In this document: positions 20,344 through 37,551 of the stretch, piece after piece
Layout: each line of letters starts with the position of its first letter
Position numbering within the stretch: the stretch's first letter is position 1
Origin: Gallionellaceae bacterium
Lineage (GTDB): Bacteria; Pseudomonadota; Gammaproteobacteria; Burkholderiales; Thiobacillaceae
Length of the DNA: 64,000 bases
Direction of reading: 5' to 3'
Assembly (NCBI GenBank): GCA_028714875.1
Contig: JAQTLN010000021.1
Coordinates: forward strand, 1-64,000
Program-made: the position numbers and the translations under genes
The notes under the pieces: generated by a model
Database searches by the model: none
The model's input: only the letters and a program-made list of their open reading frames with translations
What the model was told of the DNA's origin: nothing

Positions 20344-20452
20344 TCCCCCCTTTTCCAAAGGGGGGCCGGGGGGGATTCCTTGGACGTTGGCGCCAGCGCA
20401 AGTCATTTCAAATCCCCCCTGCCCCCCTCTGACAAAGGGGGGTGAAGGGCGC
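20344..20452. repeat. MITE-like paired palindrome (CCCCCTTTTCCAAAGGGGG family) between mshL and mshM
   Basis: CCCCCCTTTTCCAAAGGGGGG...CCCCCCTCTGACAAAGGGGGG, inward paired palindromes. Confidence 0.75.
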
Positions 20453-22809: not shown

Positions 22810-23463
22810 TCATACCGTCAGCCATGTCATCTCCGTGCTCAGGGTATAGAGGGTCAGCGTGAGTTCGATCTCGGGGTGATGGCTGGCGTCCAGTTCGGCG
22901 CGCGACCAGTAGAAGCCCACCGGCAGTTTTTCCAGGCCTTCCATGTAGCGAACCAGGTTTTCATAGCCGCCGGCGAGGGTGATGCGCACACCCTGGCGGA
23001 ACAGGGCGGCCTCCTCCGGCTTGGCTTCGGCGGGTAAACCCAGCGGCTCGGGGGCCAGGGTTTTCAGGTTGACCAGGCGCAGGCCGGGCTGGTTGCGCAG
23101 CAGGCCTTGCAGTACCCGCGCCATATCTTTGGCGGCGACCAGGCGGCTTTGCGTGAATTCGGCTTCGCGCATGCGCGTCTCCAGTGCCTTGCGAGCGCCT
23201 TCCAGGCGCTCCCGCGCGGCGCGCGCGGGGTCGATCTGGTTGGCTCGCCGCGTAATGCTGTCCTGGGCACTGGCGATCTGGGCGACCGCGGCACGCAGCT
23301 TTTCCTGTTCGGCGTGGCGCGATTTGTCCAGCGCGCCCAGCAGCAGGCCGTCCACCACCGCCCAGATGCCGGCCAATAGCAGCAGGAACAGAATCACCCG
23401 CTCACGCGGGCTGAGGGCGTCGATCTTTTCCAGGTACCCGGCAAGCTCTTTTGTGGCTTTCAT
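22810..23463 (-). CDS. mshJ: MSHA biogenesis protein MshJ (PilO-like)
   Basis: 217 aa, one N-terminal TM plus coiled coil; operon position. Confidence 0.82.
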   Translation of the reverse strand: MKATKELAGYLEKIDALSPRERVILFLLLLAGIWAVVDGLLLGALDKSRHAEQEKLRAAVAQIASAQDSITRRANQIDPARAARERLEGARKALETRMREAEFTQSRLVAAKDMARVLQGLLRNQPGLRLVNLKTLAPEPLGLPAEAKPEEAALFRQGVRITLAGGYENLVRYMEGLEKLPVGFYWSRAELDASHHPEIELTLTLYTLSTEMTWLTV

Positions 23464-24227
23464 GGCATTTTCCCCGCGGCGGCGGCCCGCATGGCCTGGT
23501 TCACATCCAGCTTGCCGGCGGCCGCTCGCGCGGCCAAGGCAGCCAGGGCGGCCGGATCAGGGCGCTGAGCAAGTGGCGCGCCGCTGATCGCCGCCGCCGT
23601 GCCGGGCCGCGCCGGATTCAGTTGGGCGCTCAGGGCGAATTCCAGGAAGCGGGGGACGGCCGCTGTGGTTTCCGCATCCTTCGATTTGTCTTCCGGTGGT
23701 TCCAGGGTGAGGCCGGCGAAAGAGAGTCCGACGAACAGCGGTTCGCGGCGCAGGCTGGCGATCAGGCGGGCGCTGTCTTCGCCGGTGAGCGCGCGACCAC
23801 GCAGGTTCAGTTCATGGCCACTCGCGGCGATTTCCACCCGAGTCAGCCAGGCACCGGGCACGCGGGCACGGGCGAGGGCGCTGAATTGCGCGGAATAGCC
23901 GGTGGTCGAACCCAGGGCGCCGCTGGCCAGGGCTTCCTGGGCCAGTTGCAGGTTACGCAGCCGGGCTTCCACGCTTTCCGTTTCGGCCAGTACTTTCGGG
24001 TCCGCCCGCCTGACCACGTTGCCGGCGTTGACCTGGGTTTCCAGATGGCTCGCGCGTTGCGTCAACTGGCCCACTTCCTGGCGTAGTTGCGCGAGGCGCA
24101 AGGCATCCCAGGCATACACCGCCAACAGGCCGCACAAAAAAACCACGCCGCCCGCCAGCAGCTTGCGCGCCGGCAATGGCGTCTTCGGCGGGTGAAAGGC
24201 GGCTTGGTAGAGGTTGATGTGTTTCAT
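23460..24227 (-). CDS. MSHA biogenesis PilN-like protein (second MshI-type)
   Basis: MKHINLYQAAFHPPKTPLPARKLLAGGVVFLCGLLAVYAWDAL; ATG at 24227. Confidence 0.82.
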   Translation of the reverse strand: MKHINLYQAAFHPPKTPLPARKLLAGGVVFLCGLLAVYAWDALRLAQLRQEVGQLTQRASHLETQVNAGNVVRRADPKVLAETESVEARLRNLQLAQEALASGALGSTTGYSAQFSALARARVPGAWLTRVEIAASGHELNLRGRALTGEDSARLIASLRREPLFVGLSFAGLTLEPPEDKSKDAETTAAVPRFLEFALSAQLNPARPGTAAAISGAPLAQRPDPAALAALAARAAAGKLDVNQAMRAAAAGKMP

Positions 24228-24476
24228 CTCGCCTCCCGCGGGGCCGTCCCAAGGGAGGCGAGCAGCCCCCTCGGGGGGCAGCGAACGAAGTGAGCGTGGG
24301 GGCGGTTCATCTCGCCTCCCGCGGGGCCGTCCCAAGGGAGGCGAGCAGCCCCCTCGGGGGGCAGCGAACGAAGTGAGCGTGGGGGCGGTTCATCTCGCCT
24401 CCCGCGGGGCCGTCCCAAGGGAGGCGAGCAGCCCCCTCGGGGGGCAGCGAACGAAGTGAGCGTGGGGGCTGTTCAT
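24228..24476. repeat. Three tandem copies of an 83-bp unit at the mshI/mshI2 junction
   Basis: CTCGCCTCCCGCGGGGCCGTCCCAAGGGAGGCGAGCAGCCCCCTCGGGGGGCAGCGAACGAAGTGAGCGTGGGGGCGGTTCAT starts at 24228, 24311 and 24394; third copy differs slightly near its end. Confidence 0.95.
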
Positions 24477-25372
24477 CTCTCCTCCCGCAGGGCCGCGCCG
24501 AGCAGATGGAATACGCGGTTCTGCATGCGTTCGTCGAGCAGGCGTTCCTGCCCGGACAGATCGAACAGGCGGCCGAGATCGAGCACTTCCGCGCCGACCG
24601 GCAGGTATTCGGCCAGCTTGCGCGCCAGCGGGGCCGAATCCGGCATCGGCGCCAGATACAGCTTGGCGAGCGGCAGCCAGGAGAACTGGCGCTCGAAATA
24701 GTCCACGGAACGCTGCGCTTCCATCGCTACCCGATCGAACAGGAAATCACCGCCGGCGCCGCGTCCCTCGATGCGGCGCGAGAGCACGAGATCCTCGCCG
24801 AAGGTGAAAGTGAGCAGGCCGCTCTCACCATCGAAATGCAGGATGGCGACGGCGTAATCCTCCGGCGCCAGACGCACGCCCAGATTGCGCTGCGCGGCTT
24901 CGCGGATGTCGATGGCGGCCAGCGGCAGGTCGGCCTGCTGGTAGGGCCGCGCCAGTTCGCGTACCGCCGGCGCCTGAGCGGCGACCACGTAGAGCGAAGA
25001 TGGCTGGCCGGCGCGTCCGGGTACCGGCAGGTGATCCAGCACGGCGTCGTCGATATGAAAATTGATCAGGTCTTTCACCTTCCAGCGCAGCGCGCTGGGG
25101 AGTTCCTCGTCGGGTACGTTGGGCGCCTCGATCAGCACGGTCTGATAGGCCTCCTGATCGAGCAGGGTGGTGAGTGGAGCATGCTGGATGCCCGCCTCGC
25201 GCGCCAGGCGGTCGAGCAGATCCGGCGTCAGGGCCGGGTTATCGGCCACCGCGAAAGACGCGACCCGGGGATGGCCGGGATCGCCCTCCAGGCGCAGCGC
25301 GGCCGCGCCACCCTGGCAGGGCGAGAGCACGGCGTGGCTGGTGGCGCGGGCGGGACGTTTGAAAGAAAACAT
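24473..25372 (-). CDS. mshI: MSHA biogenesis protein MshI (PilM-like)
   Basis: 299 aa MFSFKRPARATSHAVLSPCQGGAAALRLEG; operon position. Confidence 0.85.
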   Translation of the reverse strand: MFSFKRPARATSHAVLSPCQGGAAALRLEGDPGHPRVASFAVADNPALTPDLLDRLAREAGIQHAPLTTLLDQEAYQTVLIEAPNVPDEELPSALRWKVKDLINFHIDDAVLDHLPVPGRAGQPSSLYVVAAQAPAVRELARPYQQADLPLAAIDIREAAQRNLGVRLAPEDYAVAILHFDGESGLLTFTFGEDLVLSRRIEGRGAGGDFLFDRVAMEAQRSVDYFERQFSWLPLAKLYLAPMPDSAPLARKLAEYLPVGAEVLDLGRLFDLSGQERLLDERMQNRVFHLLGAALREER

Positions 25373-36733: not shown

Positions 36734-36813
36734 GATGAGACAACAGCCCCCACGCTCACCGCGTTCGCTGCCTGAAAAGACCCCTACCCTTCGTTCGGCC
36801 GGGCGGTACTGAC

Positions 36814-37551
36814 ATGACCGACAAGCAAACCCATTTCGGCTTCAAGACCGTCGCGGAGGAAGAAAAAGCCGCCAAGGTCGCCGAGGTGTTCCACTCCGTG
36901 GCGCAACGCTACGACGTGATGAACGACCTCATGTCCATGGGGCTGCATCGCCTCTGGAAACGCTTTCTTTCCCTGCACGCGCGGGTGCGGCCGGGCGCGA
37001 AGATTCTCGACATCGCCGGCGGCACCGGCGACATCTCCCGCCTGCTGGCGAAGGATGCCGGCCCGACCGGCGAAGTGTGGCTGACCGACATCAACGGCTC
37101 CATGCTGGGTGTCGGCCGCGATCGCATGATGGATCAGGGTCTGATGCTGCCGGTGGCGCAGTGTGACGCCGAGAAACTGCCGTTTCCGTCCGATTATTTC
37201 GACCTGGTCACGGTGGCCTTCGGTCTGCGCAACATGACCCACAAGGAAGACGCCCTGGCCGAGATGCGGCGGGTGCTGAAGCCGGGCGGCAAGCTGATGG
37301 TGCTGGAGTTCTCCAAGGTCTGGAAACCGCTGGCGCCGGTCTACGACACCTACTCCTTCCAGATCCTGCCGCGCCTGGGCGACCTGGTGACCAAGGACGC
37401 GGAAAGCTACCGTTACCTGGCGGAATCCATCCGCATGCACCCGGACCAGGAAACCCTGAAGGGCATGATGGAGTCAGTCGGCTTCCAGCGCGTGGATTAC
37501 TTCAATCTCACCGTCGGCGTGGTCGCGCTGCACGTGGGTTACAAGGTTTGA
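36814..37551 (+). CDS. ubiE: Ubiquinone/menaquinone biosynthesis C-methyltransferase
   Basis: [40 protein letters not shown]. Confidence 0.95.

Follow-up and report, generated by a model that had tools for sequence, protein, structure and literature searches.

A dispersed two-hairpin repeat forms a chain of stop/start-coupled mini-ORFs between mshI and mshI2 in a Gallionellaceae bacterium

The junction between an mshI-like gene and mshI2 in a Gallionellaceae bacterium (GCA_028714875.1, contig JAQTLN010000021.1; the 64,000 nucleotides analyzed are called the window) is occupied by three tandem copies of a dispersed two-hairpin element of ~72-93 bp, other copies of which are found in this genome, in the genus and in many Betaproteobacteria. 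We propose, with a probability of roughly 0.7, that this is a selfish mobile repeat, very likely the little-studied Beta-proteobacterial repeat element BRE (Hot et al., 2011), which would be tolerated between mshI and mshI2 because its mini-ORFs keep the translation of the two genes coupled. The array runs on the minus strand from 24476 to 24228, with mshI on one side and mshI2 on the other:

24473..25372, minus strand: mshI-like gene of 299 aa, 5' of the array, with orthologues (58-89% identical) found in 16 related genomes
24394..24476, minus strand: element unit 1 (83 bp), with the mini-ORF MNSPHAHFVRCPPRGLLASLGTAPREAR and its stop at 24390-24476
24311..24393, minus strand: element unit 2, with the mini-ORF MNRPHAHFVRCPPRGLLASLGTAPREAR and its stop at 24307-24393
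24228..24310, minus strand: element unit 3, identical in sequence to unit 2, with a mini-ORF at 24224-24310 whose TGA overlaps the mshI2 ATG
23460..24227, minus strand: mshI2 / PilN-like gene (PF05137 PilN, E = 0.00027, just under the curated cut-off)

Tandem Repeats Finder reports this array (period 83, 98% matches, score 525) as by far the strongest of the window, and three such near-identical 83-bp copies cannot be a product of chance. Unit 1 differs from the other two by a single base, A/C at unit position 7, resulting in MNS instead of MNR. Each mini-ORF consists of 28 codons and a TGA that overlaps the next ATG as ATGA: the mshI stop (TGA, 24475-24473) overlaps the ATG of the first mini-ORF at 24476, and the last ATGA is the mshI2 start (24227). 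A GGGAGG lies a few bases 5' of every ATG within the array. In all these respects, namely the three 83-bp units, the 28-codon ORFs, the ATGA overlaps and the GGGAGG of each unit, the DNA is exactly as the initial annotation described it, and the resemblance it saw between the unit end (GCGGGAGGCGAGATGAA) and the mshI end (GCGGGAGGMGAGATGAAC) extends over ~24 nearly identical nucleotides. The copy number of the array may be under-counted in this short-read assembly; in one related species (G006) the contigs break at the array. Searches of Pfam and NCBIfam with the 299-aa mshI-like protein returned no match.

The annotation had also suggested looking for the unit at other gene junctions of this genome, and at least nine further element loci were found, with copies preceding or inside hisH, an amrS-like gene, nirB, a fabF-like gene, ubiE, hflX and others (gene names other than ubiE were read off translations). 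One of these copies, single and diverged, lies in the window:

36735..36812, plus strand: second element copy, with a 28-aa mini-ORF whose TGA lies one base before the ubiE ATG (TGACATG)
36814..37551, plus strand: ubiE, 3' of this copy (PF01209, E = 5.6e-85)

The site of the ubiE copy is empty in the sister species G008 and G011. Species with empty sites were likewise found for the hflX and cobC insertions, while the relatives of hisH were not used in this way because they are just 38-48% identical. Of 61 genomes from the same order that were searched, 22 contain matches to the element, and its exact 26-base core pattern occurs in at least 120 stretches of named genomes, nearly all of them from Betaproteobacteria among the matches listed. 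A search of phages gave no match, while a search of plasmids recovered 13 records, all from Burkholderia, Paraburkholderia, Variovorax or Azoarcus. The element is probably a non-autonomous mobile DNA. Certain copies lie in frame within proteins, namely HflX (in G015 and this genome), MurD (in G017) and CobC (three tandem units in G018, with further copies in G011 and G013), and one is found at the start of the CoaE gene of G009.

Several variants of the element were observed along the way. The nirB genes of this genome (G000 C15:8163-8373, locus L159; three 72-bp units) and of G006 (L379) carry copies in frame at the N-terminus, with ATAA in place of ATGA at the inner junctions. This genome further has a related subfamily whose body is CCCCCGGCTCGG...CCGAGCCGCCCCCCGAGGGGGC and whose arms, CAAGTCGTTC/GAACGACTTG, hardly vary (L142-L146, L149, L150 and L153, on C18, C15, C9, C1, C23 and C20), as well as one copy with AT-rich arms, TAATAAAAAC/GTTTTTATTA (L147). 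Achromobacter has arrays with an 82-bp period and the arms TTTTTTACC/GGTAAAAAG, one of at least seven units (L394, G061 C1:28556-29091) and one of at least three (L395). Many copies of the element do not lie at gene starts, these intergenic arrays among them, and the Achromobacter arrays might act as terminators.

We examined the relationship of the element to start codons in 204 copies, parsed by loop and arm patterns from among the matches listed. An ATG is present in a 9-nt window at the end of the right arm in 108 of 200 copies, as against 15-24 in six control windows, and 130 of 200 have one directly preceding the left end (15-27 in controls). After dropping copies with similar downstream proteins there were 85 loci with start codons at both ends, the genes in these counts being ORFs. 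At 72 of them the stop of the mini-ORF overlaps the downstream start or lies right next to it, mostly as ATGA or TGANATG, as against 30.7 ± 4.1 expected from a random frame given each sequence; this excess is inflated to some degree by the shared ancestry of the copies, and part of it may be inherited since 58 of the 85 copies share one body frame. The other 13 loci comprise seven in-frame fusions and six overruns, with no early stops, so that faulty outcomes (overrun or early stop) number six in the real frame, as against 40 and 39 when the frame is shifted. Thus the unit is not a mostly non-coupled one, the finding that the initial annotation had named as counting against its reading. Across loci all three frames of the body are in use, with coupling in 52/58, 9/12 and 9/12 cases, indicating that the relay and not the peptide is conserved. 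In 67 of the 85, the left start lies no more than 40 nt from the end of an upstream ORF of 100 or more codons, the junction most often being ATGA, TGATG or TGANATG; hence, these loci are mostly operon junctions.

The mshI-mshI2 junction itself was compared between this genome (G000) and 18 others, with one genome per species. In 18 of the 19 the two genes are linked by overlapping or near-adjacent stop and start codons or by fusion. A direct ATGA/GTGA overlap devoid of any insert is seen in G005, G013, G002, G004, G024 and G026, a TGATG junction in G021, and a short TGA-to-start gap or an in-frame extension in G012 (TGAGATG, by eye), G014 (8-nt offset), G016 and G030. The inserts found in the other genomes are of diverse kinds. 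G000 and G022 have three units each, whose internal differences are compensating indels, and the middle of the unit is read in different frames, as IRSLPPGG in the former and FVRCPPRG in the latter. G017 has one unit carrying a nested insert, G008 and G009 have inserts of 8 codons, and G007 has two 5-codon ORFs. The insert of G011 is an unrelated repeat of 50 codons, whereas that of G006 consists of two units fused by a +1 change and followed by the same unrelated repeat, here of 63 codons. The ORFs of this unrelated repeat (loci L193 and L186, respectively) are ATGA-coupled and differ in length by 39 nt (3n), and the frame is kept; the repeat itself (GTAGGAGCGGGCTTGCCCGCGA type) presumably resembles the REP sequences of Pseudomonas. 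In every case with an insert (8 genomes, about five kinds), the stop/start chain reaches the mshI2 start as ATGA. As a rough figure, which assumes neutrality and no early stops, the chance that about five independent inserts would all couple is about (1/3)^5.

The ATGA chain is thus real, genus-wide and a statistical trait of the family at starts, which makes a termination/re-initiation relay its best reading. Accordingly, the ribosome relay advanced in the initial annotation is upheld by the junction and by the family-level statistics, but not as a device peculiar to the msh genes, since the element is dispersed. Nor is the special meaning it gave to 83 bp supported: tandem periods in the family range from 72 to 93, mostly 78-83, and coupling is attained through ATGA, TGATG, TGANATG or in-frame fusion.

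Each unit has two predicted hairpins:

24263..24282, minus strand: hairpin 1 of unit 3, GCTGCCCCCCGAGGGGGCTG / GCTGCCCCCCGAGGGGGC, the most conserved core, with an equivalent place in units 1 and 2
24228..24262, minus strand: hairpin 2 of unit 3, CTCGCCTCCC - TTGGGACGGCCCCGC - GGGAGGCGAG, corresponding to 24311-24345 in unit 2 and 24394-24428 in unit 1

In predicted hairpin 2 the Shine-Dalgarno-like GGGAGG is paired within the 3' arm, which is flush with the next ATG. The unit has a predicted fold of -42.5 kcal/mol, as against -34.2 ± 3.1 for shuffles. When two other copies from this genome were folded, hairpin 2 was present in one and absent in the other, and neither was clearly better than shuffles. 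Across 182 copies, the arms of hairpin 2 show 85-99% pairing over the first eight positions, falling to near background by the tenth. Upon swapping partners between copies, pairing over the eight positions drops to 30-86%, with about 30-43% at positions three to eight; hence, the arms co-vary copy by copy. A search of the region against Rfam gave no match above the gathering score, the sole hit, mir-448 (21 bits vs 90 required), being a chance one.

These features suggest how the array might have arisen and persisted. An original single copy would have had an ATGA start codon at its left edge, a right end flush with the mshI2 ATGA, and an open frame of the correct phase from the one to the other. 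Unequal exchange or slippage between the ATGA-containing ends of mshI and the unit could then have duplicated it; a duplicated interval running from ATGA to ATGA would account for both the 83-bp period and the preserved overlap. Ribosomes leaving mshI would re-initiate at each mini-ORF and so arrive at mshI2, opening both hairpins on their way and freeing the Shine-Dalgarno sequence otherwise held in the stem. As hairpin 2 is predicted to mask that sequence for as long as the mini-ORF goes untranslated, an insert could be tolerated provided that it brings a start codon and an open frame that terminates at the next start. Insertions that break the relay would be purged by selection because the coupling of mshI and mshI2 matters, while the peptides themselves would be unimportant. 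By bringing its own relay mini-ORF, the element could occupy operons without breaking them. This offers a testable reason for the presence of a widespread short repeat inside operons, where insertions usually break expression, and its many natural replicates across genera could reveal whether downstream translation survives the insertion of a short coupled cistron that carries a strong hairpin. At such sites, annotation pipelines probably err over starts or small hypothetical proteins.

It is conceivable, though unlikely, that the mini-ORFs are instead accidents of a GC-rich, stop-poor element residing near starts, with their geometry coming from a duplicated TGANATGA target and with no selection for a relay. 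Consistent with this, the forward body is free of stops in all frames in 169 of 188 copies; however, this is so for just 109 of 188 shuffles and 36 on the reverse strand. The TGANATGA target gives apparent coupling in two of three frames, but the expected 30.7 coupled loci already take into account the junction and stops of each copy, against which 72 were observed. Finally, duplication between ATGA-containing ends would by itself keep the geometry of an array, yet the unrelated inserts at the msh junction, with ORF lengths differing by 3n, keep the ATGA chain too.

We regard as rather improbable the proposal of the initial annotation that the units constitute a copy-number-variable translational attenuator, which would lower or tune mshI2 translation such that changes in unit number adjust pilus assembly. 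The survey of relatives, which that annotation had suggested, did reveal tandem arrays at the junction, with three units in G000 and G022, two in G006 and 0-1 elsewhere, but with copy number known from one genome per species, and with related species doing without the element. Each unit would add a strong predicted hairpin over a Shine-Dalgarno sequence, yet the element is also found at unrelated starts (hisH, ubiE, fabF-like, nirB and amrS-like) that have no common regulation. The published BRE repeat is described as a VNTR in Bordetella (PMC3110155). Against this, we found no regulatory signal, no conserved peptide and no evidence of adaptive copy number, all body frames being used. A leader-peptide attenuator is not supported either, as no conserved sensing peptide or codons were found, the reading frame of one and the same DNA differing across loci among all three. 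A role for the 28-aa peptides as conserved, functional small proteins of the msh operon is scarcely credible and was rejected, even though two species have three near-identical ORFs in a good start context, since the body frame varies between loci, even in the unit middle of G022 and G000, and most species lack the peptides.

Returning to the tolerated, coupled repeat as the preferred reading, we compared the element with known systems. According to its published description, BRE is ~75-91 bp long, GC-rich and arranged in tandem, its copies being contiguous or a few bases apart, mostly intergenic but in some cases entirely within ORFs, variable in number between strains, and found in Bordetella, Azoarcus and Comamonadaceae (PMC3110155; e.g. 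B. pertussis 3605317-3605401). Our element agrees with that account in length (unit of 83 bp), GC-richness, tandem habit, numerous copies, coding insertions and betaproteobacterial range, and by this match of descriptions is probably BRE. The arrays of at least seven 82-bp copies in Achromobacter, a relative of Bordetella, also agree with its tandem habit. No element copy was found beside lexA of Achromobacter, a result uninformative on this identity as it is a different genus. In the text of that paper, no function is proposed and there is no mention of start-codon-flush ends, mini-ORFs, frame bias or a target-matching stem (PMC3110155). A text search of the literature with the core sequence of the element found no mention of it.

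Other short repeats have partly comparable habits. The Rickettsia palindromic elements (RPE) and other coding palindromes are short repeats inserted in frame into protein genes, whereas the present element is found chiefly at operon stop/start junctions and forms a relay ORF of its own instead of an insertion within a protein. REP/BIME sequences are, like it, short, dispersed hairpin repeats with tandem copies, but they are mostly extragenic and are moved by RAYT transposases. A RAYT flanked by the repeat was looked for and not found in this genome: none of its five Y1-transposase (PF01797) loci has the element within the ~3.2-3.4 kb around it, and no transposase could be linked to the element. 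With respect to classical MITE features, the left end RTGRACRRCCCCCACG is not, on inspection, the reverse complement of the right end, and target duplications are weakly above swapped pairs. The array has the geometry of termination-reinitiation, with overlapping or adjacent stop and start codons; it is established that ribosomes terminating at ATGA or TGATG can begin anew there, often aided by a Shine-Dalgarno sequence (PMC6728339). Engineered short leader cistrons that end on the next start can remove structure from it (PMC13255528). The array resembles both in having a short upstream cistron ending on the next start, but here a mobile repeat supplies it.

The covariation of the arms bears on how the element might insert. 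In cobC, the right arm is the native sequence (native GGCTGGCTG; G006 has the empty site GGCGGCTGGCTGGTG), and the inner arm CAGCCAGCC is the reverse complement of the native host sequence at the insertion edge. It is thus possible, if only tentatively so, that this is selfish DNA adapted to translation starts, which installs a relay cistron and copies or recognizes a target of ~8-9 nt upon insertion; alternatively, the match of stem and target might arise through later palindrome correction. In the test for target duplication, the mean common substring is 4.42, as against 3.98 for swapped pairs, a weak difference on which target-site duplication as a general rule was dropped and because of which the notion of the left ATG as a copied host start draws on few loci. 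We know of no bacterial short repeat with target-templated or target-guided transposition, and a target-matching stem would be a novelty if it proves to belong to the way in which the element inserts.

Two further repeats were noted around the msh genes. At the junction 5' of mshI (25475-25370, minus strand), a TGAAATG opens another mini-ORF, MSSECANQEDGAMKIRYPKSEIRNSD followed by a stop, which is partly built on a 7-bp ATTTCGG repeat and ends 3 nt before the mshI ATG; it is a possible second relay derived from a different repeat. A second dispersed palindrome family (CCCCCTTTTTNAAAGGGGG, translated PPFxKGG) is found at several gene starts in or near the msh operon, at positions 20345, 22664, 22739, 29613, 29690, 33595 and 33667 of the window, where it lengthens the predicted N-termini of the adjacent genes.
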